From: Rathayibacter agropyri
GTDB lineage: Bacteria > Actinomycetota > Actinomycetes > Actinomycetales > Microbacteriaceae
Assembly (NCBI RefSeq): GCF_013249015.1
Contig: NZ_JABRPL010000002.1
Span: 434,001 to 498,000, forward strand
Length of the DNA: 64,000 nucleotides
Direction of reading: 5' to 3'
Positions 31,210 through 62,434 of the stretch are shown here, piece after piece. Position 1 is the stretch's first letter. Every line of letters begins with the position of its first letter. The position numbers and the translations under genes are program-made. The notes beneath the pieces were generated by a model. That model was not told where the DNA came from and made no database searches. It was given only the letters and a program-made list of their open reading frames with translations.

Positions 31210-32163
31210 ATGTTCTTCCACGTGCAACGGCTGATCAACGACATCGAGCAGGACGAGCCGGATCCGGCCGCCGCGAATGCGCTCCAGGAGGGGCTCGGCG
31301 GCCAGTTCGGCGAGATGCGCACCATGATGCAGTATCTCTTCCAAGCCATGAACTTCCGCGGCGCCGACGCAAAGCCGTACCGCGACCTCATCCAGGGCAT
31401 CGGTACGGAGGAGATCAGCCACGTCGAGCTGATCGGCACGACCATCTCGCGCCTGCTCGACGGGTCGCCGCGCTACCAGGGCAAGCCCACGGATCCGCTC
31501 GACACTCCGGGTGCCGGGGGCGCGACTCCGCTGAGCATCGCCCTCGACACGAGCAACATCCACCACTACCTCGTGGGCGCCCAGGGCGCGCTGCCCGTGG
31601 ACGCCGCGGGCAACCCGTGGAGCGGCAGTTATGTCTACAACTCGGGCAATCTTGTGCTCGACCTGCTCTACAACCTCATGCTCGAGTCGACCGGGCGCCT
31701 ACAGAAGTGCCGCATCTACGAGATGACGGACAACAAGACGGCGCGCTCGACCATCGCCTACCTGATCGTGCGCGACCAGGCGCACGAGAACGGCTACGCC
31801 AAGGCGCTCGAGACGCTCGGCATTGACTGGAAGAAAACCCTCCCGATCCCGAAGACCAACGCCGAGAAGTTCCCCGAGGTGAAGAAACTCGTCGACCTCG
31901 GCCTTCAGAGCAAGCAGTACACGTTCGACCTCGAGGGCGCGTCGGAGGCGGGGAAGATTTACCGCGGCGCCTCGCCCTCGCAGGACGGCACGGACCTGGA
32001 GTCGAAGGAGCAGGCGCCCGAGGGGGTCCCCTCGGTGATCGCGCCGGAGCGCTTCGAGGAGTTCTCCCCGGGTCTGGACCCCGAGCTGCTCACGCTCATC
32101 CAGACGACCGCCGAGATGGAGCTTGACGAGATCAGCTCCTTCTATGGTCCGACTTCGGCGTGA
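31210..32163 (+). CDS. Manganese catalase
   Basis: A 317-residue dimanganese catalase dismutating H2O2. Four-helix-bundle ligands are seen: Glu35 in GGQFGEMRTMMQYLFQAMNF, Glu68 and His71 in GTEEISHVELIG, Glu159 in LMLESTGRLQKCRIYEMTD and His192 in VRDQAHENGYAKAL. Length and C-terminal extension match KatN-type enzymes. It is heme-free, so active under iron limitation. The leader (31112-31209) holds a CAAGG-N5-CCTTG repeat (31139-31153) that may terminate the upstream gene; GGAGG lies before the ATG. Confidence 0.93.
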   Translation: MFFHVQRLINDIEQDEPDPAAANALQEGLGGQFGEMRTMMQYLFQAMNFRGADAKPYRDLIQGIGTEEISHVELIGTTISRLLDGSPRYQGKPTDPLDTPGAGGATPLSIALDTSNIHHYLVGAQGALPVDAAGNPWSGSYVYNSGNLVLDLLYNLMLESTGRLQKCRIYEMTDNKTARSTIAYLIVRDQAHENGYAKALETLGIDWKKTLPIPKTNAEKFPEVKKLVDLGLQSKQYTFDLEGASEAGKIYRGASPSQDGTDLESKEQAPEGVPSVIAPERFEEFSPGLDPELLTLIQTTAEMELDEISSFYGPTSA

Positions 32164-33739: not shown

Positions 33740-33922
33740 CGCGGCCGACGGGCGTCTGCCACTGCCGTCCGCGCTGATCGTTCCAGCGTGTCTCGTCCCA
33801 CCCGTTTCCTCCGCCGCAGGCCGCGACGGACCGCACAGGGATCGACGAAGAAGGCGTAGCCGCGCGTTATGGCCTGTGCCGCAGTTGAACCCCTCTCACC
33901 ACCTTCTCGCCAAGATGGGGGA

Positions 33923-34318
33923 ATGCAGATCCTCAGTGTCGCGGCCGCGGTCATCACCGATAACGGCCGCATTCTCGCCTGCAGACGTCGCGCCAAGAGG
34001 ATATCCGGCGGCCTGTGGGAATTCCCCGGCGGCAAGATCGAGCCGGAGGAAACACCTCAGGCCGCAGTGTGGCGCGAGATCCACGAGGAGCTCGGGATTC
34101 AGATAGCGGTCGGCAACCTTCTGACCGTCGACGAGACGGCCACCGCCGCCCTCACGATCCGACTGCACTGCTATCACGCGACTCTCATGGACGAACGGCC
34201 CACGGTAAGCAGCGATCACGACCGTCTCCTGTGGCTCAGTCCGGAGGAACTCGCCGCGCTGGAGTGGGCTGCGCCGGACCTCCCCGCCGTCCGCCTCCTG
34301 TCCTCAATGAATGGCTGA
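33923..34318 (+). CDS. Nudix hydrolase, MutT-like
   Basis: A 131-residue Nudix protein. The box G-x5-E-x7-REUxEExGU is complete: GGKIEPEETPQAAVWREIHE followed by ELGI. MQILSVAAAVITDNGRILAC, RRAKRISGGLWEFPGG and SDHDRLLWLSPEEL fit the MutT/8-oxo-dGTP diphosphatase subgroup (about 130 aa). Likely role: cleaning the nucleotide pool of oxidised dNTPs. ATG 33923 is preceded by GGGGGA. Confidence 0.88.
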   Translation: MQILSVAAAVITDNGRILACRRRAKRISGGLWEFPGGKIEPEETPQAAVWREIHEELGIQIAVGNLLTVDETATAALTIRLHCYHATLMDERPTVSSDHDRLLWLSPEELAALEWAAPDLPAVRLLSSMNG

Positions 34319-41553: not shown

Positions 41554-41679
41554 ATGCACAACTCGACCTCGGTCTCGACGACGTCGGATCTGTGCATATT
41601 GAGTGCCGAAACGTCCACAGAGGACATGTCGACCATCAGCCCTTGGGCTCAGGCCAAGGCAGACCTCGGTTGGGAATGA
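41554..41679 (+). CDS. Candidate antitoxin, 41 aa
   Basis: ATG 41554 to TGA 41677-41679 encodes MHNSTSVSTTSDLCILSAET, then STEDMSTISPWAQAKADLGW and a final Glu. The stop overlaps the toxin ATG (ATGA), the usual antitoxin-first arrangement. It is about half the length of RelB/Phd antitoxins and lacks a visible DNA-binding domain. It may be a minimal toxin-wrapping peptide, a truncated antitoxin or a leader peptide. AAAGGGG lies upstream. Confidence 0.45.
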   Translation: MHNSTSVSTTSDLCILSAETSTEDMSTISPWAQAKADLGWE

Positions 41680-41933
41680 GTCGCTACCGAATCGACCTGC
41701 GGCCAGCCGCCCTCACGGCACTGCGGAACAGTGACCCGCAGGACCGGAGGCGCATCCAAGGTGTCATCGCCCTCCTCGGTGAAGACCCGCGGCCACCAGG
41801 AGCGAAGGCACTCCAGAGTCGACCGGGCATTCGCGTGCGCGTGGGCAACTACCGGATCGTCTGCGCCATCGACGACGGACCGCTCCTCGTCGTCGTAACC
41901 CTCGGCCATCGGCGCGACATCTACGACCGGTGA
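41676..41933 (+). CDS. RelE/ParE-family toxin
   Basis: An 85-residue protein, MSRYRIDLRPAALTALRNSD with DPRPPGAKALQSRPGIRVRV and NYRIVCAIDDGPLLVVVTLG, ending HRRDIYDR. This is the RelE fold order (beta1-alpha1-alpha2-beta2-4) with the typical YRI-x-Y/C and H-R-x-x-x-Y C-terminus of RelE-type mRNA interferases. It is downstream of, and overlaps, a tiny candidate antitoxin. It lies just outside the integrated element. Confidence 0.8.
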   Translation: MSRYRIDLRPAALTALRNSDPQDRRRIQGVIALLGEDPRPPGAKALQSRPGIRVRVGNYRIVCAIDDGPLLVVVTLGHRRDIYDR

Positions 41934-41967: not shown

Positions 41968-42094
41968 TGCCCACACGCGTGGATCGGCGGGTCCTGATGT
42001 TCAACCTATGAGCTGGTCGCGGCCACACCCACCGAGGACCGCCCGGATCTCAGCAGAGCGAGGGCCTCAGCAGAGCGAGGGCCGGACGCACCGC
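41968..42094. repeat. Imperfect direct repeat, copy A
   Basis: It begins CCCACACGCGTGGATCGGCG near 41970 and ends GCGAGGGCCGGACGCACCGC. Copy B (43103-43218) has the same order: CCCACATACGTGGATCGGCG, a divergent middle, then GCGAGGACCGGACGCACCGC. Copies A and B lie after the RelE gene and after the HNH gene respectively. Confidence 0.6.
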
Positions 42095-42170
42095 AGTGTG
42101 TCGCCGTTGCCGTCACGACCGCAGCACCGGGCGCCGCGAAGCCCACAACCCGATCGACCGAGAAGAAGAC

Positions 42171-42311
42171 GATTCACCCATGAAAAGGAGAAACCCCAGA
42201 TGAGCCACAGGAAAAACGAGAACGGCCCGCCGAAGCGGGCCGTTCTGCTCTGTCTCAACCAGAGTGCGCCCGGAGGGATTCGAACCCCCAACCTTCTGAT
42301 CCGTAGTCAGA
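42171..42311. repeat. Distal attachment-site repeat with tRNA-Arg 3' fragment
   Basis: Identical to 53235-53375 apart from one base in the compared stretch (GAGCCAC versus GAGCAAC). It includes the 47 nt of tRNA-Arg from the 3' end to the anticodon stem (42265-42311) and the tRNA terminator hairpin (42219-42246). Beyond 42311 the tRNA sequence stops, so this copy is not a functional tRNA. Confidence 0.85.
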
Positions 42312-42441
42312 ATCGCGGAGTCCACGGAGGTCCGCCGCTCCCGGCGACGCCGGCCTCGGTGTTCCACGCGCACCGGCCCGACGTCCACGCATTCACTCGC
42401 GTTGCTGTCACGGTTGCTGTCTTCGGAGAGGTGGTGACCCG

Positions 42442-43068
42442 ATGACCGATCAGGACTGGACCGACCTGTTCCTGCCCACGCTGATGCCCGACGCGCCCGC
42501 CGGCCATGTGCGGATGCGCGCCGACGTCCTGCCTCCGAGCGTATTCGGGTCGAACGTGCGCGGCATCGCCCGTGAGTCGGAGTGGGATCGGATTCGGCTA
42601 GGCATCTCCGCCCGTGCGGGCAAGCTCTGCGAGATCTGCCGTGGCGAGTCCTACGGGCCTCATCGCAAGGTGCAGCATCCCGACTGTCACGAGATTTGGC
42701 GCTTCGATATCTGTGACGGCGTCGTAACTCAGGTGCTCGCCGACCTCATCGCGCTCTGCAAGAGGTGCCACAACACGCAGCACGTCGGCCGAGCGCTCGA
42801 TCTCGAAGACGTCAACGAGGTTCTGCAGTCGGTGAACGGGTGGAGCCATGCCGAGGCGCACGAGGATATCCGGCGCGCCTTCCGCCGCCTCAAGCTGCTC
42901 GAAGGAGCCGAGGTGGATCTCGACCTGTCGGTGCTCGTCGGCCAGATCATCGTTCCGGGCGCACCCGGGCTGCGCTTCACGTCCGCGCAGCGGTCGCTCT
43001 TCGGCAACTCATGGAACCGGTCGAAGCCAGCACCGCAGCTCGCACAGCTCGACCTAGGGCTCGGGTAG
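42442..43068 (+). CDS. HNH-endonuclease-like protein
   Basis: A 208-residue protein. A zinc-type HNH module spans about 55-115: CEICRGESYGPHRKVQHPDC, then HEIWRFDICDGVV, LADLIALCKRCHNTQHVGRA (CxxC, W-R-F-D, CxxCH). The C-terminal half is helical without a known domain. Standalone HNH proteins of this type occur on actinobacterial mobile elements; they may nick DNA or act in defence. ATG 42442 has GAGAGGTGG upstream. It is the first gene of the element and is followed by repeat B. Confidence 0.7.
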   Translation: MTDQDWTDLFLPTLMPDAPAGHVRMRADVLPPSVFGSNVRGIARESEWDRIRLGISARAGKLCEICRGESYGPHRKVQHPDCHEIWRFDICDGVVTQVLADLIALCKRCHNTQHVGRALDLEDVNEVLQSVNGWSHAEAHEDIRRAFRRLKLLEGAEVDLDLSVLVGQIIVPGAPGLRFTSAQRSLFGNSWNRSKPAPQLAQLDLGLG

Positions 43069-43433
43069 CTCGAGCAACAGCCGTAAGCTCAAGCAGCGGA
43101 CTCGCCCCACATACGTGGATCGGCGGGTCTTGCTGTTTAACGGTTCGACCGGGTCACCTCCCGGACCTGCCGAGGAGCGCCCGGACCGCAGCGGAGCGAG
43201 GACCGGACGCACCGCAGGTGGGTCCGCTGGGCGGAGCCCGGCGCTTGAACGAGTAGAGAAAGTTCTCACGCCGCAGCAACGATCGCCGGCCGGGCCTGAC
43301 GGCTCGCCGTTGCATCAGAGCGCTAACATGGTGTAGTGCACACCGTCGAGATGTTCGGCACCCGACCCAAATGTCTGAGGTCTGCTATAGGGTGCACACA
43401 ACTGACTGGGAACGTGAAGGACGGAAGAGTGCC
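43069..43433. promoter_or_regulatory. Repeat B and ietA leader region
   Basis: 43103-43218 is imperfect repeat B. Further on, GTGCACAC occurs twice (43335-43342 and 43392-43399), the second directly after an extended -10-like TGCTATAGG (43382-43390). The repeated octamer around the promoter could be an operator for the ATPase/subtilase pair. Confidence 0.45.
43103..43218. repeat. Imperfect direct repeat, copy B
   Basis: Counterpart of copy A (41968-42094), about three-quarters identical, with both ends best conserved. The spacing between copies (about 1.13 kb) encloses the distal att repeat and the HNH gene. Confidence 0.55.
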
Positions 43434-44393
43434 GTGGCGACTGGAGAGCTACTCACCGAGCTAGTTCGGGCGCACTACAACGATGAGTCGGCCCGTTTCG
43501 GCACGATCCTGGGCCAAGTTATCGCAGCCGAGTCACGCGCGGGGCATACCCAGGTCGCACGCAGGCTTCGAGAACTGAGGCTGACGAGTGAGGACCGAAC
43601 ACCCAAAAAAGCCGTTCCGCTAGCTCGGACCGCGAAGAACCTTTCAGATCTGATCGATATCGGATATAGCGATTCTCGTCTTTCGGACCTCATCTTGAGG
43701 ACAGAGACGATGTCGCGCATTGAGCGGATCGTGGTGGAGCAGAGAAAGAAGGGCCTACTTGAGGAGCATGGTCTGCGTCCAAGGCGGAAGGTACTACTGC
43801 ATGGCCCTCCTGGCACAGGGAAAACCCTCACTGCAGCTGCATTAGCGGGGGAACTCAAGTTACCTTTCGCTCGCGTGCGCCTCGAAGTGCTCTTCAGCCG
43901 GTACCTCGGAGAAACGGCCTCGACACTAAACGACATCTTCAGCGAGGCCAGTCGAGTAAAAGGGGTTTACCTGTTCGATGAATTTGATGCGCTCGGAAGC
44001 CAGCGCCTTGATTCGAGCGATATTGGCGAGATGCGCCGCATCGTCGGCACGTTCTTGCAGCTTCTCGATTCGGACGGTAGTGAAAGCATTTTCGTCGCCG
44101 CAACGAATATACCAGCGAACATAGACGGCGCCCTGTTCCGACGGTTCGACGACATCATTGAGTATCAGGGCCCCGACCATGACGCGCGCGTCCAGCTCAT
44201 TCGTCGAATGACGAGATCCGAGAAGCTTCCCATTTCCGCTCTCAAAGAACTTGCTGCCACAGCTAAATTATCCTCCCTGGCGGATTTGACGGCCGCGGTC
44301 AACGAGGCCCGAAAAACAGCCTTACTCGCTGGACGGACGGAAGTCACAGCAAACGAGATAGCCGATGCAATTGCAGAACGTATGAACCGATAG
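43434..44393 (+). CDS. ietA: AAA ATPase of an IetAS-like system
   Basis: A 319-residue AAA+ ATPase. A short helical N-domain (about 1-85) precedes the ATPase core: Walker A HGPPGTGKT at 123-131, Walker B VYLFDEFDALG with D182/E183, sensor region SIFVAATNIP and arginine-finger region GALFRRFDDIIEY, then a helical lid. GTG 43434 is chosen because AAGGACGGAAGAG lies upstream and ATGELLTELVRAHYNDESAR matches the usual IetA N-terminus. It is followed after 39 nt by the subtilase gene. In known IetAS systems the ATPase-protease pair stabilises plasmids and protects against phage; the ATPase probably controls or delivers substrate to the protease. Lower GC than flanking genes. Confidence 0.8.
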   Translation: MATGELLTELVRAHYNDESARFGTILGQVIAAESRAGHTQVARRLRELRLTSEDRTPKKAVPLARTAKNLSDLIDIGYSDSRLSDLILRTETMSRIERIVVEQRKKGLLEEHGLRPRRKVLLHGPPGTGKTLTAAALAGELKLPFARVRLEVLFSRYLGETASTLNDIFSEASRVKGVYLFDEFDALGSQRLDSSDIGEMRRIVGTFLQLLDSDGSESIFVAATNIPANIDGALFRRFDDIIEYQGPDHDARVQLIRRMTRSEKLPISALKELAATAKLSSLADLTAAVNEARKTALLAGRTEVTANEIADAIAERMNR

Positions 44394-44432
44394 CCCTTTT
44401 CGCCGACAGAGCTCAAATTTCAAGGGAGAAAT

Positions 44433-46790
44433 ATGGCCGACCTGCCGCACATTCGAATCAGTGCGTCCCGATCAGATAGCTACAGCTCACCGCGCAGAGG
44501 GAACACTGCTCCAGCTCCGGCGCGGGACCGACAGACGCAGGCGAACCACGTCAGTGGCTTGCTGCAGAGTATTGAGGGCGAGATTCGCGACCGCAAACTG
44601 AATAGCGGCTTGGTTCTCGCATTCAATGGTCCTGGACTGGAGGACGAAGCATCTCGACTCGGGGACAAACGAACAGGTAATGAGGTTCTTGCGGTCTCAC
44701 CGCTCGAAACGGTTCTGGTTGGAAGCCGCGGCGACCTGTCCGCTCTTCGGAAAAAGGTATCCGAGTATCGAACAGAAGAAACACCGAAGGGACGGCCGAA
44801 GCACGAGCAGTTAGTTGCGCGCATCGAGTCCGCCAGAATCGCCAGGATTCAGGATCTTTCATTTGGGGAGATCGACGATTCGGCGATCGATAAGGATACC
44901 GTCTACTTCGTGGAGATATGGCTCGGCTTCGAGGTGGAAGGAAGCAGTGACCAAGCTAGGTTCGAAGCATTCATAGAGTCGGCCGAAGCCGATCAGGATG
45001 TGCGTCACATTTCCACATACAAGGGCACGGATCGCGATGTTCATCTAGTAGCGATACGCGGCAGTGTTCTACTCGGACTTCCTGAGCACATGCCGTACCT
45101 CGCTGAGGTACATTTTCCGCCCGCAGTGAGGCTCCGTGAAGTGGCCGGAGGAATCGAATTCTCTAAAGGTCTGCCGCCGGTGCTAGTTCCGACTCCGCTT
45201 CAGGTGGCGGTGGCGGTGCACGACACTGGACTGGACCACCTTCACCCGCTCCTGGCTCCCGTCGTCCTGGGCACTGACTCGGCTGTACCCGACGGCTCGG
45301 CGCTCGACTGGAACGGCCACGGAACCCGGATGGCCGGTTTGGCGGTCTATGGAGACCTGACGAATCAAGTCCTGGATTCCTCACTAATTCCAGCAGCGGC
45401 GCTGATCGCGGTGGAGTACCTCGAGCCAGGGGAGCGCGGTGACGTTCTTTGGGCCGAGAGAACTCAACTCTCAATTGAGATCGCCGAGGACCTCGGACGG
45501 AACCATAGAGTCGTACACAGCATCAGCATGGGTGCGTCCAACCCGAGAGAACACGAAGCCACTAGCTGGTCGACCGCGATTGATCGCGCCGCTTGGAATA
45601 ACGGTGAAGGCCGGCTTATCGTCGTCGCCGCAGGCAACGTACCTCCTGCCTCGGACCCATCACAGTATCCGTCGGAGAACCTTGCTTCGACGCTCTCGCA
45701 ACCAGCTCAGGCATGGAATGCAGTAACCGTCGGAGGCGTAACGGAGTTAGCTACCCTTTCCCCCCGTGACGTCCGGCTTGGCGCAAGCGCACCCGTGGCC
45801 ACACATGGTCAATTGAGCCCATTCACCTCAGTCGGTCCAGCGAAAATGTGGCCTAGCAAGCCTGACGTTGTTGCCGAAGCAGGAAACACCGCGCCGGACG
45901 GTTCAAACCCAAATCAAGGACTGATCGGCCTCTCCGTCCTAACCACGGCCGCACGGACGATCGGTTCTGATCTAACTCGAGCAAACGCGACGAGCGCAGC
46001 GACCGCAATAACCGCGAACGCGCTGGCACGAATATGGGCAACCTACCCAGATTTCAGGCCGGCCACCATTCGAGCTCTTCTAATTCACGCCAGCCGCCCA
46101 ACGCATTCAATCGTCGATCAGCTTGATCCTGCGGACCTGCGGCGATCCATCGGTCACGGCTCCTTTGACTGGTCACGAGCCGCCCTTAGCTCAGAGAGCA
46201 GACCGGTCATGGTTTATGAAGGGTCGCTTCAGCCGAAGGTCATCAATATCGACAAGAGCATTACCCGGCAGGTTGTGCTCATTCAACTGCCCTTCCCCTC
46301 GACTATCTTGCGTGATCTCGGGCCGGAACCGGCGGAATTGCACGTTACATTGTCCTACTTCGTCGAGCCCTCCGAATCAGAAAGGCGATCAAAGTATGCC
46401 GGGGTCCGATTGAGGTGGGACATGCAAGGCCCAAACGAAACACCGGAAGAATTTGCGGCGAGAATCAATGCCCTCGCGAGGGAAGAGGATCACGTTACGC
46501 ACACATCCAGCTACAAGTGGGATCTCGGCGCTGACGAACGTTCTCGAAGCTCTGTGCAACACGATTGGCTAGAAGGCCCTGCAGCATCCTTCGCTGGCGA
46601 CCGACTTATTGCGGTCTACCCCGTCCTGGGATGGTGGGACCGCCGAAAAGGGTTTGAGCAGAGGACAATTGACTTCTCGCTAGTTGCTTCACTCGAGGTT
46701 TTCTCGGACGTGGACATTTACGCCCCGATTTCTGCCGCTCTGGAGATTGATCTCGATGTCGACACCGAGGTCGAGATTGAGACAGCGTAG
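44433..46790 (+). CDS. ietS: S8 subtilase of an IetAS-like system
   Basis: A 785-residue cytoplasmic subtilisin-like protease without signal peptide. The N-terminal 250 residues form a pro-/regulatory domain. The catalytic triad is intact: Asp264 in AVHDTGLDHLHPLL, His296 in DWNGHGTRMAGLAVYGD and Ser521 in RANATSAATAITANALARIW, with oxyanion Asn402 in VVAAGNVPP. A 200-residue beta-rich C-terminal domain follows and ends in an acidic tail. ATG 44433 follows AAGGGAGAAAT. Pairing with the upstream AAA ATPase is the IetAS signature. GC is visibly below that of neighbours, indicating recent acquisition. Confidence 0.82.
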   Translation: MADLPHIRISASRSDSYSSPRRGNTAPAPARDRQTQANHVSGLLQSIEGEIRDRKLNSGLVLAFNGPGLEDEASRLGDKRTGNEVLAVSPLETVLVGSRGDLSALRKKVSEYRTEETPKGRPKHEQLVARIESARIARIQDLSFGEIDDSAIDKDTVYFVEIWLGFEVEGSSDQARFEAFIESAEADQDVRHISTYKGTDRDVHLVAIRGSVLLGLPEHMPYLAEVHFPPAVRLREVAGGIEFSKGLPPVLVPTPLQVAVAVHDTGLDHLHPLLAPVVLGTDSAVPDGSALDWNGHGTRMAGLAVYGDLTNQVLDSSLIPAAALIAVEYLEPGERGDVLWAERTQLSIEIAEDLGRNHRVVHSISMGASNPREHEATSWSTAIDRAAWNNGEGRLIVVAAGNVPPASDPSQYPSENLASTLSQPAQAWNAVTVGGVTELATLSPRDVRLGASAPVATHGQLSPFTSVGPAKMWPSKPDVVAEAGNTAPDGSNPNQGLIGLSVLTTAARTIGSDLTRANATSAATAITANALARIWATYPDFRPATIRALLIHASRPTHSIVDQLDPADLRRSIGHGSFDWSRAALSSESRPVMVYEGSLQPKVINIDKSITRQVVLIQLPFPSTILRDLGPEPAELHVTLSYFVEPSESERRSKYAGVRLRWDMQGPNETPEEFAARINALAREEDHVTHTSSYKWDLGADERSRSSVQHDWLEGPAASFAGDRLIAVYPVLGWWDRRKGFEQRTIDFSLVASLEVFSDVDIYAPISAALEIDLDVDTEVEIETA

Positions 46791-47062
46791 CGGCACACTG
46801 GAACCTTCATCTGATCGTGCCGGTGGGGCGGGCCTGCCGACATGAATCATACGGGTCGACTGTAGGCCAGGCACGGAACCCACGGAAGCCCTCTCCGATG
46901 CCTCGGCCGCCTTCTGCGCCGTCCTCAGCACTTTCCCCGAGGAAGGGAAGACGGTCAGCAAAGATGACCGGCGCTATAAGACCTGACGGGTTTCAACCCA
47001 CATGATTCCTGAGTCAATTGGTGGCCGCTAGCCATTCGCCCGGCGACACATCGGATCGCGGG
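46791..47062. other. Intergenic region between convergent genes
   Basis: Openings here lack credible starts. The region keeps the lower GC of the subtilase gene until about 46990 and returns to high GC at 47060, marking the probable right edge of the cargo insertion. I see no clear terminator hairpin. Confidence 0.35.
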
Positions 47063-47671
47063 TTAATTTTGAGAAGGCGAGTTCGAATTCGACTCTTGCC
47101 TGATCGGAGTGAGCGTCGCGGCGATCCCCTCCAGCGTTCTCTTGCCTTGCTCGCGGCGGTGGTCAGCTCGGACTTGCTCGACGCTACGAGGCCGCGTCCC
47201 ACTGTCACGCATGGACCGAGCGGCCTCCCCGATCGGTCCGTCGAATTCCGCGAGATCTGATAACGCGAGCGACGTGAAGCCGGCCAGGATCGCATCTACG
47301 TCGGGCTGTTCGGAGAGAAGAGCCGCAAGGCCCTCAACTGCGGCCTGGCCGTAGCGACGGGGGATGCCCTGCGGCGAGGCGTCCTGTGCGCGCGCCAAGT
47401 CCGCCATCACAGGACGTGGTTGGTGGAAGCGATGCGCGTAGGCCGTGAGCAGGGCTCGTAGGTCGGTGCTTGCGCGCGCGACCTTGTGCGCGTCCGACAC
47501 GGACATCCGCAGGAGATCTTGAACGTCGCGGGGCTTGTCAGGCCAGACGATGCCGTCGAGGTGCCGCCCGCTGCGCAGGATCTTCTTGTTGAGCGCATGT
47601 ACAGCCTCCACCACTGGCTTGGGGACGAGGCCCCACCCCTCCAGCGCGCTCGCTTCGTCGTTCTCGCTCAT
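47063..47671 (-). CDS. Hypothetical element-encoded protein
   Basis: A 202-residue soluble, helical protein: VPKPVVEAVHALNKKILRSG, LLRMSVSDAHKVARASTDLR and a basic C-terminus EQVRADHRREQGKRTLEGIA. No helix-turn-helix is certain. It is the only minus-strand gene in the element and faces the transfer operon across a 242-bp divergent region with palindromes, the place where AICEs often keep a regulator; that role is a guess. Confidence 0.55.
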   Translation of the reverse strand: MSENDEASALEGWGLVPKPVVEAVHALNKKILRSGRHLDGIVWPDKPRDVQDLLRMSVSDAHKVARASTDLRALLTAYAHRFHQPRPVMADLARAQDASPQGIPRRYGQAAVEGLAALLSEQPDVDAILAGFTSLALSDLAEFDGPIGEAARSMRDSGTRPRSVEQVRADHRREQGKRTLEGIAATLTPIRQESNSNSPSQN

Positions 47672-47680
47672 CTCTCAAGT

Positions 47681-47695
47681 GTCGCGCATTGCGAC
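47681..47695. promoter_or_regulatory. Palindrome in the divergent control region
   Basis: GTCGC-GCATT-GCGAC, 9 bp upstream of the minus-strand gene; CATTGCG recurs at 47708-47714. Together they look like regulator sites controlling the minus-strand gene and the transfer/replication operon that starts at 47914. Confidence 0.45.
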
Positions 47696-47913
47696 GCCGT
47701 ACGCACACATTGCGGACGTTCACGCTTGCGTTGGTCATACACAAATGTTTATGCTTGGTTCGTCGCGAACGAGCCCGGACTGTCCACCGTCCGAGACGGT
47801 GCGGATCGTGCTCGCCGCGATTCAAACAGGCAATCAAGCAAGGAGGGCTGAGGACCATCAGTCCTGACGCGAGGGCTCCTCGCGACCTACAAGCCGATGC
47901 ATGGAGGAACAAG

Positions 47914-48315
47914 ATGCCAGTGAAGAAAACCGGGCTACCCGTCAACAGTGAGAGCTACTTCGGAGGGCCGGCCTACGCCGTCGGTGACGCCGAACCCCTC
48001 ATCGAGTTCGTTGACGGGAAGCCCGCGGGGCAGCAGCACGACCGCGACACCGGGAAGCCGCTCTGGACGGTTCGCGTGTTCGACGCCGACCCTGACGCGC
48101 CGAAGGGACAGGGCGAGGTAACCGTCAAGGTCGTCGCGGTCAGCCCGCCCACGCTTCCCGCCGAGCTGCCAGGCCTGCCGTTCCGCCCGGTGATCTTCGA
48201 CGATCTCGTCGTCGTGCCGTACGTGAAGGAAGGCAACGGTCGTCCCCGTGTGGCCTACTCACTCCGAGCAGGCGGTATCCGCCCCGCTCCCGCACGCAAA
48301 TCCGGCGACTCGTGA
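47914..48315 (+). CDS. Hypothetical protein, first gene of the transfer/replication operon
   Basis: A 133-residue protein MPVKKTGLPVNSESYFGGPA then LWTVRVFDADPDAPKGQGEV, VKVVAVSPPTLPAELPGLPF and VAYSLRAGGIRPAPARKSGD. The strand pattern suggests a small beta-barrel, perhaps OB-fold, and similar proteins precede the translocase gene in related elements. GGAGG lies 6 nt before the ATG. Its stop overlaps the translocase start (GTGA). Confidence 0.55.
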   Translation: MPVKKTGLPVNSESYFGGPAYAVGDAEPLIEFVDGKPAGQQHDRDTGKPLWTVRVFDADPDAPKGQGEVTVKVVAVSPPTLPAELPGLPFRPVIFDDLVVVPYVKEGNGRPRVAYSLRAGGIRPAPARKSGDS

Positions 48316-49715
48316 TCGTCGCAGAGCTTCGCAACTACGGCAGCGGTCTGCGTGAGGTGCTGAGGCGACACAAGGTGCTCCCGCCGGTCTACGTCGTGGC
48401 GATCATCGTCCTCGGACAGTGGCGGCCCGCTCAGATCGCGCTGTGGCTGATCACAGCCGCGCTGATCCTCGGCGCGCTCATCTGGCGCTACCGGGATGGT
48501 GCGAATCTCAGCACTCACCAGTTCCGGGTGTGGCAGCGACGTCAGTACGCCCACGTCGCTGCCGTCTGGCCGGAGCTGATGCTCCGTCTCGGCCTTGCCA
48601 TCCGTCTGGCCCCGGCCGCGCCGGAGGTCCCACGTATCAGCACAGCGCGGTGGCACGGTCACTCGCTGGTACTCGTCACCCATCTTCCGCTCGGGATGGA
48701 GCGAGACCGACTCGTGCTGTCCGCCTCCGCGATCGCCGAGTCACTTGGAGCCGTTGCGGTGACCGTCGAAGCTGCTCCTGGCGGGGCCGAAGTTGCCATC
48801 CGCTTCGCCGACCCGCTCACTCAGCCGGTGATGGTTCCGGACCCGGGCGACCATGTTGACCTTCGCGCGGTTCCGATGGGCGTTCAAGCCTCAGGAGCAC
48901 CCTGGACGTTCCGCGTCGGGCCCCACACCCTCGTGGCTGGGTCGTCTGGCTCGGGCAAGGCGTCGATGATCTGGAGCCTCCTCATCGGTCTCAGCCCCGC
49001 CATTCGCGAGGGGAAGATCGAGGTCTATGGCGTCGATCTCAAGGGCGGCATGGAGCTGACGATGGGGCGCGGGCTGCTCACTCAGTACGCCACCGAGTCG
49101 GAGGCTGCGGTCATCCTGCTCGAGCGTGCCGTCGTCCGAATGCAAGAGCGTGCCGCCCGGTTGGCTGGCAACGCACGCGCACACACAGCGACTGTCGAGA
49201 GTCCGCACGTCCTCGTGGTCATCGACGAGCTGGCCGCTCTCACCGCGTACCAGACGGATCGCGACCTGCTGCGCCGAGCGAACAACGCTCTCGCGCTGCT
49301 CTGCTCGCAGGGTCGAGCGCCCGGGTTCACGGTCTTCGCGTGTCTCCAAGATCCGCGCAAGGAGACCCTGCCCGTCCGGGGCCTGTTCACGCAGACCATC
49401 GGGCTTCGTCTCCGCGATGCAATGGAGACCTCGATGGTGCTCGGTGAAGGCATGCGGGAGAAGGGCGCTCTCTGCCACCAGATCCCGACGACGCTCCCCG
49501 GTGTCGCCTACGTGGCTCCCGACAACGGTGGAGACCCCATCCGGGTGCGCGCCGGCTACGCGTCAGACGACATCATCCGCTACACCGCGGAACGCTACCC
49601 CGCACCGCGCGTCGAGGCGATCGTCGAGCCCGACGCCGCCTCGACAGATCCCAAAGCAAGTTCACCAAGCCCGCGACGCCCTCGCCGCAGCCGCAAGACA
49701 GGAGAAGAAGCATGA
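48312..49715 (+). CDS. FtsK/SpoIIIE-type DNA translocase (TraB-like)
   Basis: A 467-residue protein: two N-terminal membrane helices (about 24-58), then a RecA-like motor with Walker A GSSGSGKAS at 210-218, Walker B HVLVVIDELAAL and RAPGFTVFACLQDPRKETLP. This is the single-protein conjugation motor of AICEs, moving double-stranded DNA between mycelia or cells. The Walker A has Ala before the final Ser, where Ser/Thr is more common. No separate wHTH gamma domain is obvious at the C-terminus. Coupled by overlap to genes on both sides. Confidence 0.85.
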   Translation: MIVAELRNYGSGLREVLRRHKVLPPVYVVAIIVLGQWRPAQIALWLITAALILGALIWRYRDGANLSTHQFRVWQRRQYAHVAAVWPELMLRLGLAIRLAPAAPEVPRISTARWHGHSLVLVTHLPLGMERDRLVLSASAIAESLGAVAVTVEAAPGGAEVAIRFADPLTQPVMVPDPGDHVDLRAVPMGVQASGAPWTFRVGPHTLVAGSSGSGKASMIWSLLIGLSPAIREGKIEVYGVDLKGGMELTMGRGLLTQYATESEAAVILLERAVVRMQERAARLAGNARAHTATVESPHVLVVIDELAALTAYQTDRDLLRRANNALALLCSQGRAPGFTVFACLQDPRKETLPVRGLFTQTIGLRLRDAMETSMVLGEGMREKGALCHQIPTTLPGVAYVAPDNGGDPIRVRAGYASDDIIRYTAERYPAPRVEAIVEPDAASTDPKASSPSPRRPRRSRKTGEEA

Positions 49716-50107
49716 CCACCAAGACCCGCACTCGCTGGATCGTCGGCCTGACCCTCGGAGTCTCTGTGCTCGCGGGAACAGCGATGGCCGGCTACGCCAT
49801 CGGTACCGCCTCCAACCTCCAAGCACAGAGGGGTTACGCGACCGGCGTCGAGACGGCTCGATGGGACTACTGCAACCTGCAATTCGATGCGGACCACAAG
49901 CCGGTCGCCGATGATCCGCGCACCTACGCCGGCCTACCCGAATCGGCCATCGTGGCGGACGCGTCGTGCAGCCCAGAGCTGGTCACCTCCTGGAACAACG
50001 CTCAACAGGACGCGGGCGCTGAGAAGAGAGGATGTGTGATCGACGAGGACCTCACAGCGATCGTCGGCGCGTACGTCTGCACCGCCCCCACGAGCACCAC
50101 CTACTGA
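49712..50107 (+). CDS. Small membrane-anchored or secreted element protein
   Basis: A 131-residue protein with an N-terminal hydrophobic segment WIVGLTLGVSVLAGTAMAGY (about 9-28, signal anchor or signal peptide) and an outer domain with four Cys (DYCNLQF, DASCSPELV, KRGCVIDED, YVCTAPTS). It is positioned between translocase and initiator genes and overlaps both, so probably a transfer accessory (spread-type) protein. Function inferred from position only. Confidence 0.55.
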   Translation: MTTKTRTRWIVGLTLGVSVLAGTAMAGYAIGTASNLQAQRGYATGVETARWDYCNLQFDADHKPVADDPRTYAGLPESAIVADASCSPELVTSWNNAQQDAGAEKRGCVIDEDLTAIVGAYVCTAPTSTTY

Positions 50108-51552
50108 TGCCGACGCTCGCCGATTCGGTCGCCGACCGCGTGCGGCGTGCCGACTTCGATGACTGGATGAGAGGTGCAGCCGCCACGGGCTATTGCGCCA
50201 ACCCCGTCCGTCTCGTTGGGTCGTCGCACGTCGTCGACGCGGTCTCCGGCGAAGTCGTGTCGTCCTACGAGTCGGCGCAGCAACCAGACGGCGTCACCTA
50301 CGTGCGCTGCGGCAACCGTCGCGCGGTTCGTTGCCCCTCGTGCAGCCATGAGTACAAGGGCGACATGTGGCACCTCGTCGTGGCCGGCGCTGCGGGCGGG
50401 ACGAAGGACGTACCGGAATCCGTCGGCAGCCACCCGCTCGTCTTCCTCACGCTCACTGCGCCGTCATTCGGAGCCGTTCACTCGGCCAAGAAGTCCGGCC
50501 GTTCGGGCTCGGCCCGCTGCCGTCCGCGGTCGAAGAAGGAGCTGTGCCCGCACGGCCGCCCGACATGGTGCATGGGCATGCACGACCCCGACTCTCCGAT
50601 CGCCGGAGAACCGCTCTGCCGAGACTGCTACGACTACCTCGGACACATCGTCTGGCAGTGGCACGCACCCGAACTCTGGCGGCGCTTCACCATCGCTCTC
50701 CGCCGCAAGATCGCTCAGTCCCTCGAACTCACCGAGGCCTCGACGCGAAAGCTCGTGCGGGTGCAGTTCGCCAAGGTCGCCGAGTTTCAAAAACGCGGCC
50801 TGGTGCACTTCCACGCTCTCATCCGCCTGGACGGTGACGCTCGCGAGGGAGATCCTTATCCCGCGCCATCTGTGCCGATCGCTTCTGCGCACCTCGCGAC
50901 GATGGCGGTCGAGAGCGCGGCCTCTGTCTCCGTCGTCGCAACTCCCATCGCGCCCGACGATGCCGCTCGGGTTCTCCGCTTCGGTCGCCAGGTAGATGCA
51001 CGCGGTGTGGTCCGTCACGAGACCGACAGCGACGACGAGCTGACCGATCGTGCCGTCGCGGCCTACATCGCGAAGTACGCGACGAAGGCGACAGAAGAGG
51101 TCGACCCGTCGGCTGCCGCTAACGGTCCGAGACCACACGTCGCCCAGCTCAAGCAAACCATCGAGGATCTCGCGCGAATCTCTCGCCTCGGCTCCACAGA
51201 CGACACCTACGACCTCCTCGGCAAGTGGGTCGGCATGCTCGGCTTCCGCGGCCACTTCGCCACGAAGTCCCGCCGCTACTCCACGACCCTCGGAAAGCTC
51301 CGCTCCGCCCGTCAGCTCTGGCAGAAGCGAATTGCCGCCAAACGATCCAACTCGTTCGGCGTCGAATCCCAGGCAGAGGACGACGACCTCGACGACGACA
51401 CCACGCTCGTCATCGGTCAATGGAGCTTCGCGGGGATGGGCTGGCTGACCAATGGAGATGCTGCCCTCGCTGCCGAGGCAGCCGCTCATGCACGTGAGTG
51501 GGCCGACAACCGACGCCAGCAGAAGAAGACCAACGAGAACAAGGAGAGGTGA
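50107..51552 (+). CDS. repSA: RepSA-type HUH replication initiator
   Basis: A 481-residue rolling-circle initiator as in pSAM2. The N-terminal zinc-binding Cys pairs are CGNRRAVRCPSC and CRDC. The HUH metal motif is GLVHFHALIRL (H234, H236). The catalytic tyrosine region AAYIAKYATKATEE has Tyr320 and Tyr324. C-terminal helices GFRGHFATKSRRYSTTLGKL are the conserved RepSA end. It nicks the excised circle at its double-strand origin to start replication. Its ATG overlaps the previous stop by one base. The origin itself could not be located. Confidence 0.88.
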   Translation: MPTLADSVADRVRRADFDDWMRGAAATGYCANPVRLVGSSHVVDAVSGEVVSSYESAQQPDGVTYVRCGNRRAVRCPSCSHEYKGDMWHLVVAGAAGGTKDVPESVGSHPLVFLTLTAPSFGAVHSAKKSGRSGSARCRPRSKKELCPHGRPTWCMGMHDPDSPIAGEPLCRDCYDYLGHIVWQWHAPELWRRFTIALRRKIAQSLELTEASTRKLVRVQFAKVAEFQKRGLVHFHALIRLDGDAREGDPYPAPSVPIASAHLATMAVESAASVSVVATPIAPDDAARVLRFGRQVDARGVVRHETDSDDELTDRAVAAYIAKYATKATEEVDPSAAANGPRPHVAQLKQTIEDLARISRLGSTDDTYDLLGKWVGMLGFRGHFATKSRRYSTTLGKLRSARQLWQKRIAAKRSNSFGVESQAEDDDLDDDTTLVIGQWSFAGMGWLTNGDAALAAEAAAHAREWADNRRQQKKTNENKER

Positions 51553-51557
51553 TTGCC

Positions 51558-51743
51558 ATGGAGAAGCTCATGCTGACTCCCGAAGAGGTAGCTGATGCGC
51601 TCGGTGTCGGACGATCCACCGTCTACGACCTGCTGCGGCTCAAGGTGCTGCCGAGCGTTCGGATCGGGCGTTCCCGTCGCGTCCGGGTCGAGGATCTGCG
51701 CGGCTACGTGGACACCCTGATAGAAGCCCCGGTGCCGCAGTGA
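51558..51743 (+). CDS. xis: Excisionase/MerR-like helix-turn-helix protein (Xis)
   Basis: A 61-residue protein MEKLMLTPEEVADALGVGRS then TVYDLLRLKVLPSVRIGRSR, RVRVEDLRGYV: the standard excisionase-type winged helix (PF12728-like). It directs the integrase towards excision. ATG 51558 with AAGGAGAGG upstream. Its stop overlaps the integrase GTG, so Xis and Int are made together. Confidence 0.88.
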   Translation: MEKLMLTPEEVADALGVGRSTVYDLLRLKVLPSVRIGRSRRVRVEDLRGYVDTLIEAPVPQ

Positions 51744-52885
51744 GCAAGCGCGCGAACGGAGAAGGTTCCGTCTACCAGCGGAAAGATGGTCGTTGGAGTG
51801 GGGCAACCTACGTCCTCCAACCGGATGGTGGTCGCCGACGCCGACAGGTCTATGGGGCAACTCGCACTGAGGTCTCCCGGCAACTCGCCGACCTCAAGGC
51901 GAAGACCGACCGCGGAATCCCGGCGTCGATCAGCACGTGGACCGTCGAGTCTTACGCCGCGCACTGGCTCGCCCACACAGCTCATGGCTCGCTCAAGCCT
52001 TCGACCGTCTCGAACTACTCCTGGATGATGCGGAAGCACATCGTGCCCGCGATAGGGCGGATTCGACTCGACAACCTGACGCCAGCGCACGTGCGCGAGC
52101 TTCATACCAAGGTCGCCGCAGCGGGTGTCTCCTCCCGGACCGTCCAGCTCGCACACGCCGTTCTCCGGACCATGCTGTCCGAGGCGATGCGAGAACAGCT
52201 TGTCGCTCGCAACATCGCGACGCTCGTCCGAACGCCCCGAGTCGAGCGCACTGACGTGTCGCCGTGGACACCGGATGAGGCGGCAGTATTTCTCGAGGCC
52301 AACCGCTCCGACTCCTACGTCCACCTGTACTCCGCCGCACTCTCCCTGGGGATGAGGAAAGGCGAACTGCTCGCCCTCCGCTGGACGGACATCGATCTCA
52401 ACTCGCGGGAGTTGCGGATACGCCAGACGGTGCAACGCCTCGGTGCCGGGCAGGGAATGGTGATCGGAACACCCAAGACCAACCGCTCCCGCCGTACGAT
52501 TCCACTCCCCCAGATCGCCATCGATGCGCTCATGGCTCGCCGTCGAGCGCAGCTCGTCGATCAGCAGCTCGCGGGTGGCCGGTGGAACGAAAGCGACCTC
52601 GTGTTCACGACGTCGATCGGCACGATCATCGAGCCGACAAATCTGCGCCGCAGCTTCAATGCCGCGATCGAGCGGGCCGGAGTCCGACGCATCCGCTTTC
52701 ACGACCTCCGGCACACATGCGCTTCACTCCTGCTCGCGGAGGGCGTGCCCATGCGCGTTGTGATGGAGATCCTGGGGCACTCGGCGATGGCGATCACATC
52801 GGACATCTACGCCCATGTGATGCCCTCGGCTCTCACGAACGCGGCGACCGCGATCGACGCTGCACTTCAGAGAAGGGACATTTGA
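51740..52885 (+). CDS. int: Tyrosine-family integrase
   Basis: A 381-residue site-specific recombinase. An arm-binding start (GEGSVYQRKDGRWSGATYVL), a SAM-like core-binding domain (about 65-165) and the catalytic domain with R206 (GMRKGELLALRW), K246 (TPKTNRSRRT), H321-x-x-R324 (HDLRHTCAS), H347 (LGHSAM) and nucleophile Y357 (SDIYAH). All residues are present, so it should be active. It lies next to the tRNA-Arg attachment site it presumably uses. Its GTG start overlaps the xis stop. Confidence 0.92.
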   Translation: MSKRANGEGSVYQRKDGRWSGATYVLQPDGGRRRRQVYGATRTEVSRQLADLKAKTDRGIPASISTWTVESYAAHWLAHTAHGSLKPSTVSNYSWMMRKHIVPAIGRIRLDNLTPAHVRELHTKVAAAGVSSRTVQLAHAVLRTMLSEAMREQLVARNIATLVRTPRVERTDVSPWTPDEAAVFLEANRSDSYVHLYSAALSLGMRKGELLALRWTDIDLNSRELRIRQTVQRLGAGQGMVIGTPKTNRSRRTIPLPQIAIDALMARRRAQLVDQQLAGGRWNESDLVFTTSIGTIIEPTNLRRSFNAAIERAGVRRIRFHDLRHTCASLLLAEGVPMRVVMEILGHSAMAITSDIYAHVMPSALTNAATAIDAALQRRDI

Positions 52886-53145
52886 TGCCAGGCCAAGCCC
52901 CGTACGAATCGGCTGAGAGCTATGCACGCGGTGAGATCTCGCGCGACGACCTGATCCATCTGCTGACGACCTGGCGCTATCTCCCGAGCGAGACGCGCAC
53001 GACCGGGCTGCACGATGACCTGCTCAACACTGTCTCCGGGTCGTTCGACGACGTCGAGGCGGCCATCACCGACGGGCTCATCGACGACGAGATCTACTCC
53101 CGCGCCCATGAGGCGTTTCTGACTCAGATGAGGGAGCGCGGTTGA
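52885..53145 (+). CDS. Small element protein downstream of integrase
   Basis: An 86-residue acidic, helical protein: AESYARGEISRDDLIHLLTT, WRYLPSETRTTGLHDDLLNT, GSFDDVEAAITDGLIDDEIY. Its ATG overlaps the integrase stop (TGATG). No domain known; similar short acidic proteins follow int or precede toxins in related elements, so an antitoxin-like or regulatory role is possible but unproven. Confidence 0.5.
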   Translation: MPGQAPYESAESYARGEISRDDLIHLLTTWRYLPSETRTTGLHDDLLNTVSGSFDDVEAAITDGLIDDEIYSRAHEAFLTQMRERG

Positions 53146-53234
53146 GCAGGACGAGCCGGTTGCTGTCGCGGTTGCTGTCACGACCGCAGGCCGGGCACAG
53201 CGAAGCCGACAACCCGATCGAGTGCGAACCAGGC

Positions 53235-53375
53235 GATTCACCCATGAAAAGGAGAAACCCCAGATGAGCAACAGGAAAAACGAGAACGGCCCGCCGAAGC
53301 GGGCCGTTCTGCTCTGTCTCAACCAGAGTGCGCCCGGAGGGATTCGAACCCCCAACCTTCTGATCCGTAGTCAGA
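53235..53375. repeat. tRNA-proximal attachment-site repeat
   Basis: 141-bp direct repeat of 42171-42311 with one difference. Similarity continues more weakly about 50 bp to the left of both copies. It covers the 3' 47 nt of the intact tRNA-Arg, its terminator and 3' flank. After crossover in this identity block the element supplied the present tRNA 3' half. Confidence 0.85.
53283..53310 (-). terminator. tRNA-Arg terminator
   Basis: AGAACGGCCCGC (53283-53294) pairs with 53299-53310 around CGAA, followed on the minus strand by five T (A5 at 53276-53280): a classical intrinsic terminator, duplicated at 42219-42246. Confidence 0.85.
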
Positions 53376-53401
53376 TGCTCTATCCGTTGAGCTACGGGCG
53401 C
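53329..53401 (-). tRNA. tRNA-Arg (anticodon ACG)
   Basis: 73 nt on the minus strand. Acceptor GCGCCCG pairs with CGGGCGC (discriminator A). The D arm is GCTC/GAGC. Anticodon arm TCTGA-CTACGGA-TCAGA gives anticodon ACG (A34 read as inosine). The T arm contains TTCGAAT. CCA is not encoded. On the minus strand ACTATA at 53442-53447 reads as TATAGT, a -10 about 40 bp upstream. Its 3' half is the integration site of the adjacent element. Confidence 0.95.
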
Positions 53402-53631
53402 AGTCCATTGCGTGGCCCGGAGGCGCACGCAACGAGCTACGACTATACATGCCGCGAGCCCCCATCCCCTAATCCACGAGGAGCGCCGTTCGAGGGGTCC
53501 AGGAGGTGCCGAGAGACCATCCCTGACGCGGTGCCTCGCCGCGCACCGGGACATCTCGCAGCAGCGGCGCCCCTCCGCGCACCAGGTTACCTCCCCGAAC
53601 CGGACCCTCCTGCGCAGGTAGCGTGGCAGCT

Positions 53632-58721: not shown

Positions 58722-59108
58722 CTAGAGCAGCCGGCCGTTTTTTGGGTCCAGTGCTGCGAACCAGAATGCGGTGTCCTCCTCCGTATGCACATGCATCGCC
58801 ACCTCGACCATGTAGTCCGACCAGTAGGTCGGATCAAGGTCGTTGATCCTTACTCCGTTGAGTTCGAGGAAGGTTATGGTCGCGACCCACGCCGTGCGCT
58901 TGTTGGCGTCTGCGAATGCATAAGCCTGCGTGATGCCGTGGAGCATGACGCTCGCCTGCTCATAGATTGTCGGATGGAGGAACACCGCACCAAACGATGA
59001 TTGAGGGCGCAGCACCGCCCCCTCAAGCTTGCCCCGGTCTAGCAATGCGGCGCCGTCCATGAGGTCGTGCAGATTGATGACTTCCTCGACGGTAAGGAAG
59101 CGGGTCAC
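58722..59108 (-). CDS. Doc-type toxin (Fic fold) with substituted catalytic His
   Basis: A 128-residue Fic/Doc protein: MTRFLTVEEVINLHDLMDGA, GAVFLHPTIYEQASVMLHGI, TQAYAFADANKRTAWVATIT. The Doc motif H-x-F-x-D-A-N-K-R appears as Y63-AFADANKR, with Tyr in place of the catalytic His; Asp67, Asn69, Lys70 and Arg71 are kept. Doc toxins phosphorylate EF-Tu, for which the His is needed. This copy may be inactivated or work differently. The GTG start overlaps the Panacea stop (GTGA), so the pair is one operon. Confidence 0.82.
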   Translation of the reverse strand: MTRFLTVEEVINLHDLMDGAALLDRGKLEGAVLRPQSSFGAVFLHPTIYEQASVMLHGITQAYAFADANKRTAWVATITFLELNGVRINDLDPTYWSDYMVEVAMHVHTEEDTAFWFAALDPKNGRLL

Positions 59109-59650
59109 TTGGTTGCGAGGAGGACGAGACCCTCTTTCCAGCGAGCGATTACGCTCCGAGCAACGGAGCTTGCCTCATCGGCGTCGGCGCTCGTCAGATG
59201 GACGCGGCGTTGAGGCACGTCCCCACCCTCGATTGCCCTGCAGGAGTAAAAGTCGAGCATGGTGTCACGCCGGACGACGCGCTGCGACGGCTCGTCTGGT
59301 CCGAGCCCTCTGCGAGCATCCATCCACGGCGCGTCGCGATGGGTACGTTCGACGAGCTCTTTGAATCCGCGGTGACCGTAGAACTCGAGTACAGAGTCGA
59401 GGGTCCCGCGAATCTCCTCCGTCAGGTTCGCCCTGGCGGACAACGAACCGTAGCGGTTCTCGCGGTAGACGGAGCGAACCACCGGGCCCTTCGGCCAGGC
59501 CTCGAAGTCCTCCTCGAAAATCGGCCTTCCCGTCCAGGCCAGGTGCCAGGCCTGCGCGAAGTAGACCAGCTTCTGAAGCCTCACGCTGTCCCCGCTGGGG
59601 ACTCTCGCCGCGGTCGCAACGTAGGCGGCAACGTCGAGTGCGGTGGTCAT
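59105..59650 (-). CDS. Panacea-domain antitoxin (PanA, DUF4065)
   Basis: A 181-residue protein with the Panacea/SocA/GepA core: ALDVAAYVATAARVPSGDSV, RLQKLVYFAQAWHLAWTGRP, FEEDFEAWPKGPVVRSVYRE, then ELVERTHRDAPWMDAR. Panacea domains are versatile antitoxins that neutralise unrelated toxins encoded next to them (PanAT systems); Fic/Doc partners are known. ATG 59650 is chosen for GGAGGGG upstream. A C-terminal extension (VVRRDTMLDFYSCRAIEGGD onward, about 50 aa) may give toxin specificity. Confidence 0.85.
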   Translation of the reverse strand: MTTALDVAAYVATAARVPSGDSVRLQKLVYFAQAWHLAWTGRPIFEEDFEAWPKGPVVRSVYRENRYGSLSARANLTEEIRGTLDSVLEFYGHRGFKELVERTHRDAPWMDARRGLGPDEPSQRVVRRDTMLDFYSCRAIEGGDVPQRRVHLTSADADEASSVARSVIARWKEGLVLLATK

Positions 59651-60470: not shown

Positions 60471-60950
60471 GACCGAACGGCAGCCAACCCCCTTCGGCGC
60501 GACAGGGTTGAGTTCGTCGACGTCGGCTGGCAGACCAGACTCGCTGTACTGGGCAATTGTGTTGCGCTGGCTGGCTCCCACTACGAGGTGGTCAACTACA
60601 CGGTCACGTACACCGGCGAGAAGTCTGCTTACGCCGCCGAGGTCAGGGCGGACGTAGTCACGACCGCAGGCAACGTTGTCAACAGTTTTGACACGATCGT
60701 CCTGCTCGAGGACAGCATCGGAATGGACGAACTCTTCAACGGTGCTTCAGCGACGGATTCTGCAGCCTTCGTTATCCCGGACCGCGAGTCAGCGCTGATT
60801 CGCGTTCGGCCAGCGAGAACAAATTCCCTCCGGAACGAATCCGGTGAGCGCCGACTAAGAGTGCTCGAGCAGAGAAGAAGGAGCACGACTGGCAGACGTG
60901 CTTCGTTGGCGAGCACCTGGATCACCACAGTTGCTGCTAGACATCCCTAA
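60471..60950 (+). pseudogene. Remnant of an exported-protein-like gene
   Basis: Open from after TGA 60468 to TAA at 60948, but with no plausible start before GTG 60588. The translation VEFVDVGWQTRLAVLGNCVA, YTVTYTGEKSAYAAEVRADV, NSFDTIVLLEDSIGMDELFN looks like the C-terminal beta-sandwich of an actinobacterial surface or lipoprotein. The part after about 60830 turns basic and non-protein-like, suggesting a frameshift. GTG 60588 could yield a 120-residue product. Confidence 0.35.
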
Positions 60951-62344: not shown

Positions 62345-62434
62345 TGGCGGTACCGGTGGGATTTGAACCCACGGTGGACGCAAGCCCACACATGTTTTCG
62401 AGACATGCTCCTTCGGCCGCTCGGACACGGTACC
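62345..62434 (-). tRNA. tRNA-Ser (anticodon CGA)
   Basis: Class II tRNA of 87 nt plus encoded CCA (62345-62347). Acceptor GGTACCG pairs with CGGTACC. The anticodon arm CATGT-CTCGAAA-ACATG gives CGA. The long variable arm GTGGGCTTGCGTCCAC and T arm GTGGG-TTCAAAT-CCCAC are complete. Reads the UCG codon. It is the intact copy of the sequence truncated at 58556. Confidence 0.95.

Follow-up and report, generated by a model that had tools for sequence, protein, structure and literature searches.

The ietA/ietS module of the Agrobacterium Ti plasmid pTiC58 consists of a gene for an AAA ATPase and a downstream, co-oriented gene for a protease of the S8 (subtilase) family. This module and its homolog sgiAT on Salmonella genomic island 1 (SGI1) have been described as stability systems (PMC5006074 for sgiAT; this and all other cited papers are represented here by extracts of their text), and sgiAT has been demonstrated to work as a toxin-antitoxin (TA) pair (PMC5006074). 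A chromosomal pair in Mycoplasma mycoides subsp. capri, T133/A132, likewise combines a subtilase toxin with an AAA antitoxin (PMC8562856), and in these relatives the protease is toxic and is neutralized by the ATPase (PMC8562856, PMC5006074). In S. Typhimurium, the integrase of an integrative and conjugative element (ICE) is present in 91% of the ietAS positives (PMC9958689). Here we describe a pair of this kind in a stretch of 64,000 nucleotides from Rathayibacter agropyri (contig NZ_JABRPL010000002.1, positions 434,001 to 498,000), which we refer to as the window in the following. The pair is carried by an actinomycete integrative and conjugative element (AICE) of the pSAM2 type, about 11 kb in length.

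IetAS pairs have already been described, including those of SGI1 (sgiAT) and the mycoplasmas, and the pair in the window is a new representative, ordinary but clean. What is new are predicted defence-family matches in the hand-picked cargo of 10 out of 16 related AICEs, one of which is a distant second IetAS. We found no report of an IetAS carried by an AICE in the open-licence literature that was searched.

The gene pair and its assignment to IetAS

The original prediction, made from the letters of the window alone, had described adjacent, co-oriented ATPase and protease genes with Walker and catalytic-triad residues, and all of these are present: ietA and ietS lie on the forward strand, separated by 39 nt (Table 1). 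IetA contains HGPPGTGKT at residues 123–131, including K130, as well as D182/E183, N225 and R236/R237, and IetS contains D264, H296 and S521, plus the oxyanion residue N402, so that the catalytic residues of both proteins are complete; the roles of these residues are those that we take to hold for the two families in general.

That the pair belongs to IetAS, as had been proposed, is supported by profiles, by homology to the founding pair of pTiC58 and by synteny. In PADLOC, the best matches of the two proteins are the IetA and IetS models (Table 1, with E-values that come without model cut-offs), and the scores are similar to those of the pTiC58 pair. In tblastn comparisons with pTiC58, residues 1–316 of the 319 residues of IetA are 43.3% identical and residues 107–784 of the 785 residues of IetS 31.3%. 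The NCBIfam equivalogs IteA and IteS (NF042959, NF042956) speak against the assignment, with 177.6 of 510 and 72.9 of 900 bits, below the curated cut-offs; the pTiC58 pair likewise stays under them, at 198.8 bits and with no IetS match at 1e-15. The two pairs share gene order, orientation and protein families, but differ in host phylum and vehicle. Moreover, a DUF6088 gene lies directly upstream of the pair in pTiC58, whereas none was seen at the locus described here, and the IetS of the window is shorter (785 versus 836 amino acids) and has diverged in the linker that precedes the catalytic domain. The reading frame of ietA is also open from an upstream in-frame ATG at 43371. The alignments with the majority of the listed plasmid homologs begin at the first residue of the GTG form, and the annotated start of pTiC58 IetA is the position equivalent to GTG 43434, which is therefore the likelier start.

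For a wider comparison, a genome collection was scanned with a six-sequence IetS alignment, yielding at least 594 candidate stretches, at least 545 of them encoding relatives, of which the best 80 were kept. In 73 of these 80, ietA is located upstream of ietS and co-oriented with it; in L071 it is likewise upstream and the ORF calls overlap, and four loci are cut by a contig end. In the remaining two, from Mycobacterium montefiorense (L006) and Occultella gossypii (L007), ietA is divergent and ietS is found behind a small gene (L006:9615–9950 and L007:9675–9968), assigned to helix-turn-helix proteins by Pfam in L006 and similar to it by eye in L007; these two loci represent a different IetAS layout, which probably includes a helix-turn-helix regulator. 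Trees with 104 rows for IetS and 93 rows for IetA both group the window pair with these two and with Pseudonocardia eucalypti (L008), with a support of SH-aLRT 100; 100/100, and apart from the main actinobacterial group. These three are the closest relatives found (52–55% for IetA, 39–42% for IetS), but differ from the window in having no RepSA match in the 22 kb examined for each; L006 has an integrase match beside a tRNA-Leu. IetS matches at an E-value of 1e-20 or better occur in at least 14 of 396 genomes of one order and at least 6 of 394 of one class, both lower bounds with at most two first-look candidates scored per genome. Phages yielded an IetS match in 2 of 50,697 records, and viral contigs no relative with a single-protein query. 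A search for a close genome by the right flank (4 kb) gave none, only partial matches of 65–72% identity in 34 of the 396 genomes of the order.

The lower GC content that had been claimed for both genes holds as well: it is 0.564 for ietA and 0.579 for ietS, compared with 0.64–0.67 for six other genes of the element and 0.703 for positions 1–42000 of the window. The cargo stretch as a whole (0.573) lies below all 230 segments of equal length outside the element, the minimum of which is 0.609. As AICE cargo frequently decays (PMC9513070), the pair might be silent or non-functional despite its intact frames, and no sigma-70-like promoter was found in 43000–47100, in a scan that is blind to other promoter types. 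Against such decay stand the two open frames, a purine-rich, ribosome-binding-like stretch upstream of ietS, and the residues D264, H296, N402 and S521, which are invariant across all 69 of the IetS proteins aligned; we give it very little credence.

A further claim, dedicated control of the pair through the repeat GTGCACAC near the promoter, did not survive comparison with shuffled sequence. The repeat is real, with four copies in the window versus 1.9 expected, but this number is reached in 11 of 100 shuffles. Similarly, three different 8-mers are repeated in the 365-nt intergenic stretch, where at least one repeated 8-mer occurs in 1401 of 2000 shuffles and at least three in 492. Upstream of the pair in four relatives, GTGCACAC occurs as a single copy in L006 and is absent from L007, L008 and L001, and we have discarded it as a dedicated operator.

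The structure model of IetS (pLDDT 89.1, pTM 0.92) comprises an N-terminal part, a propeptide-like domain (residues ~155–230), the catalytic domain (~245–585) and a C-terminal β domain (~590–770). The lists of structural matches, obtained with VIA-align, barely cover the first 150 residues of IetS and the first 60 of IetA; by eye, the secondary structure of IetS 58–136 resembles a second β-α-β-β-α-β unit. This predicted architecture is similar to that of pro-subtilisin and suggests that IetS may be an autoinhibited cytosolic toxin, in which the propeptide-like domain would inhibit the protease.

The element and the cargo of its relatives

That the pair is cargo of an actinobacterial AICE, as had also been proposed, is evident from the genes for RepSA, an FtsK-type translocase, an excisionase-like protein and an integrase, which lie in a row between two tRNA-Arg repeats (Table 1). 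The repeats are identical at 160 of 170 positions (94%), and identity falls off on both sides. RepSA scores 362.1 of 700 bits with the NCBIfam RepSA equivalog, under its cut-off. The element resembles other pSAM2-type AICEs in these four proteins and in its site at a tRNA gene, but differs in its cargo, IetAS. It also differs from the vehicle of sgiAT: SGI1 is likewise an integrating transferable element (PMC5006074), but is mobilized by IncA/C plasmids, whereas the AICE has replication and transfer genes of its own. GntR and XRE regulators and NUDIX and Spd proteins have been named as typical of AICEs (PMC11706625); among the scanned ORFs of the element, Pfam recognized no GntR, XRE or NUDIX protein, and four ORFs had no Pfam match at all.

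Table 1. Features of the AICE and its IetAS cargo, in window coordinates
Feature	Position	Strand	Remarks
Left attachment-site repeat	42144-42313	.	contains copy of tRNA-Arg 3' end
ORF, 208 aa, left end of element	42442-43068	+	no Pfam match at 0.01
Conserved non-coding element, candidate rolling-circle (double-strand) origin	43160-43275	+	core 43244-43269
ietA, AAA ATPase, predicted antitoxin	43434-44393	+	start GTG 43434; 319 aa; Pfam AAA 2.1e-29; PADLOC IetA 3e-64
ietS, S8 subtilase, predicted protease toxin	44433-46790	+	start ATG; 785 aa; Peptidase_S8 3.2e-47; PADLOC IetS 4.6e-29
ORF, 202 aa	47063-47671	-	BLAST match in 5/20 related AICE loci; no Pfam match
Small conserved backbone ORF	47689-48315	+	BLAST match in 17/20 related AICE loci; start uncertain and probably further downstream
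FtsK/SpoIIIE-type DNA translocase, presumed transfer protein	48312-49715	+	PF01580 6e-10
RepSA replication initiator	50032-51552	+	PF20199 RepSA 2.6e-153; true start probably downstream of first start codon
Excisionase-like HTH_17 protein	51498-51743	+	PF12728 1.8e-13
Tyrosine integrase	51740-52885	+	PF00589 9.8e-26
Right attachment-site repeat	53208-53377	.	covers 3' half of tRNA-Arg (acg) 53328-53401(-)

With at most four candidates scored per genome, RepSA relatives were found at 51 places, spread over 39 of the order's 396 genomes, and the 20 best-scoring places (L143–L162) were compared. The FtsK gene and the small backbone ORF are common to 17 of these 20. Upstream of the backbone genes, 33 cargo ORFs were picked by eye for their size and low GC content; 28 of them and two more were scanned with PADLOC, making 30 ORFs at 16 loci, while L158, L160–L162 and five listed ORFs (in L143, L145, L153, L154 and L156) lay outside the scan. 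The ten loci with a defence match, all at an E-value of 1e-15 or better, carry DNA methyltransferases (L143), IetAS (L145), RmrA, HEC-05 and RT_UG17 (L146), CARF6, PRTase_III-A and a methyltransferase (L147), HEC-05 (L149), Shedu and a restriction enzyme (L151), NsnA (L153), NsnA and a methyltransferase (L154), PDC-M04A (L156) and PDC-M68B (L157). L159 gave a weak match (1.4e-7), and the scanned ORFs of L144, L148, L150, L152 and L155 gave none at 1e-5. Among chromosomal controls from the window, one protein out of ten matched a defence candidate family. As the picks favoured foreign-looking genes, this contrast is suggestive and no measured enrichment. Restriction-modification (R-M), abortive infection and TA genes on AICEs have been published before (PMC9513070), and an association of AICEs with defence is known for another gene (PMC11706625).

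The second IetAS, in L145, lies upstream of the same AICE backbone as the pair in the window and matches PADLOC at 1.2e-88 (IetA) and 1e-63 (IetS), with an identity to the window pair of just 34% for IetA (108 of 320 aligned positions) and 27% for IetS (117 of 432). In both trees, it is placed beside L106 and well away from the window, on branches that are long and of unsure position, which suggests two separate acquisitions of IetAS. Furthermore, the backbones of L143 and L145 are 88% identical and their cargo is different, which points to cargo exchange.

A conserved non-coding element is located beside ietA, with an almost invariant 26-nt core, CTTGANNGAGTRNNGAAAGTNYTCAC, from which the ietA start lies 165 nt downstream. 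The core occurs once in the window and, with three mismatches allowed, in 0 of 100 shuffles. Of 181 loci, 12 contain the element, all of them among the 20 RepSA regions; it was found in none of the other 161, most of which contain no AICE, and shorter RepSA loci may not extend to it. RepSA replicons have been placed in the pC194 family, partly by their nick site (PMC3218068), and nick sites of the pC194 type read CTTGATA (PMC10378824). The core starts with CTTGA, and we regard the element as a candidate RepSA rolling-circle double-strand origin. Its RNA fold is unremarkable (z -1.72; 11 of 200 shuffles equally stable). The listed cargo lies on the opposite side of the element in L143–L145, L147–L150, L152, L153 and L157, on both sides in L156, and on the same side as in the window in L154.

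Several other observations concern the element and its surroundings. The 208-aa ORF at its left end shows an HNH-like Cys/His spacing by eye and a 30% match over 90 residues in the AICE L154, and the 202-aa ORF adjoins transfer genes in some related AICEs. A 609-aa protein without a PADLOC match is found in the cargo of both L148 (6820–8646, reverse strand) and L150 (6817–8643, reverse strand); the L148 copy has no Pfam match, and the protein is a candidate cargo system. At gathering cut-offs, Rfam detected nothing in 42000–53600 except the tRNA. Just beyond the left attachment repeat, a ParE-type toxin is encoded (41592–41933, +). Elsewhere in the window, the gene for a Fic/Doc-family protein overlaps that for a SocA/Panacea-type antitoxin protein next to it (58722–59713, -), a likely TA pair; a second Fic-domain protein (60937–62097, -; low GC, 0.58) is located near tRNA-Ser 62345–62434 and is maybe the trace of another island. 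The window also encodes a manganese catalase (31210–32163, +) and, at 33869–34318 (+), a chromosomal protein that matches the PADLOC candidate family PDC-S07 at 4.7e-41 and looks nudix-like by eye.

Function of the module

We consider it probable that this IetAS acts as a toxin-antitoxin and defence module, a swappable AICE cargo that serves the retention of the element and also limits the spread of phages. Carrying over the properties of its relatives, IetS would be the toxin, a subtilase that resides in the cytosol and contains a propeptide-like domain, and IetA, encoded directly upstream, would bind it and render it harmless. Loss of the element, or a phage that disturbs IetA or the complex, would release IetS, and the freed protease would digest host proteins until growth stops or the cell dies. 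Consequently, cells that retain the element would be favoured and the spread of phages would be limited. The activity of this copy, the binding of the two proteins and the trigger are presumed in this scheme; the dual role is plausible in view of the published relatives and the company of the cargo in related elements. Alternatively, IetA could unfold substrates and feed them to IetS, in the manner of PAN or FtsH, and the pair would be an ATP-dependent protease rather than a TA system. The relatives show the reverse of what feeding would predict, with a protease that is toxic when the ATPase is absent and is neutralized in its presence, and we regard this alternative as improbable.

Two further alternatives each keep one half of the dual role. 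As a pure addiction module, IetAS would stabilize the element through post-segregational killing or the exclusion of competitors and leave phages unaffected. The published stability phenotypes of pTiC58 and sgiAT agree with this, as does the interpretation of AICE TA genes as addiction systems (PMC9513070), and an excising, replicating element of 11 kb would benefit from such a module. Yet the R-M enzymes, Shedu, RT_UG17 and NsnA in related AICEs are more typical of defence, PADLOC catalogs IetAS as anti-phage, and IetAS on a Pf phage correlated with resistance (PMC11878078), a correlation only, as the lysogenization test gave no lysogens. Moreover, according to the extract of PMC5006074, sgiAT under its own promoter caused no post-segregational killing, and its authors inferred that it needs activation. 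Taken together, this makes pure addiction unlikely. The same result and the defence-like company of the cargo region would fit a pure anti-phage system, acting during infection only and contributing nothing to element stability, and a review table links ietAS to changes in phage DNA polymerase, single-stranded DNA-binding protein, helicase and similar proteins (PMC10286901). Since stability phenotypes have been published for relatives, this too appears rather unlikely.

Returning to the combined toxin-antitoxin and defence role, several observations weigh against it. Besides the low NCBIfam scores and the bias that hand-picking by size and low GC content introduces into the count of 10 out of 16 loci, these are the lack of post-segregational killing by sgiAT, the poor conservation of the propeptide-like domain (mean identity 0.20) and the rarity of IetAS on RepSA elements. 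An IetA match at 1e-25 is present in 8 of the 39 RepSA genomes, but near RepSA in G292 (L145) only, in a count where draft contigs may hide further cases; of 19 further IetAS regions from actinobacteria, none has a RepSA match, four match an integrase and one matches FtsK. IetAS is therefore no regular part of AICEs, and we have rejected the idea that it is a standard component.

A more ambitious reading goes further. RepSA AICEs of this family would possess an exchangeable defence region beside their rolling-circle origin, into which IetAS would have been recruited on two or more occasions from lineages very far apart; IetS would be a propeptide-capped cytosolic zymogen; the dosage of ietA, which starts 165 nt from the origin, would follow excision and replication of the element; and a single module would both enforce retention and kill infected cells. 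In this full form, we find the reading distinctly unlikely.

IetAS is catalogued both as a stability module and as an anti-phage system, and the literature, in the extracts considered here, calls its mechanism unknown. The predicted pro-subtilisin architecture of IetS offers a testable idea for how the toxin may be restrained. With its simple gene set, and with the pair in a region where related elements often carry genes of predicted defence function, the 11-kb element offers a compact setting in which to separate the two roles.

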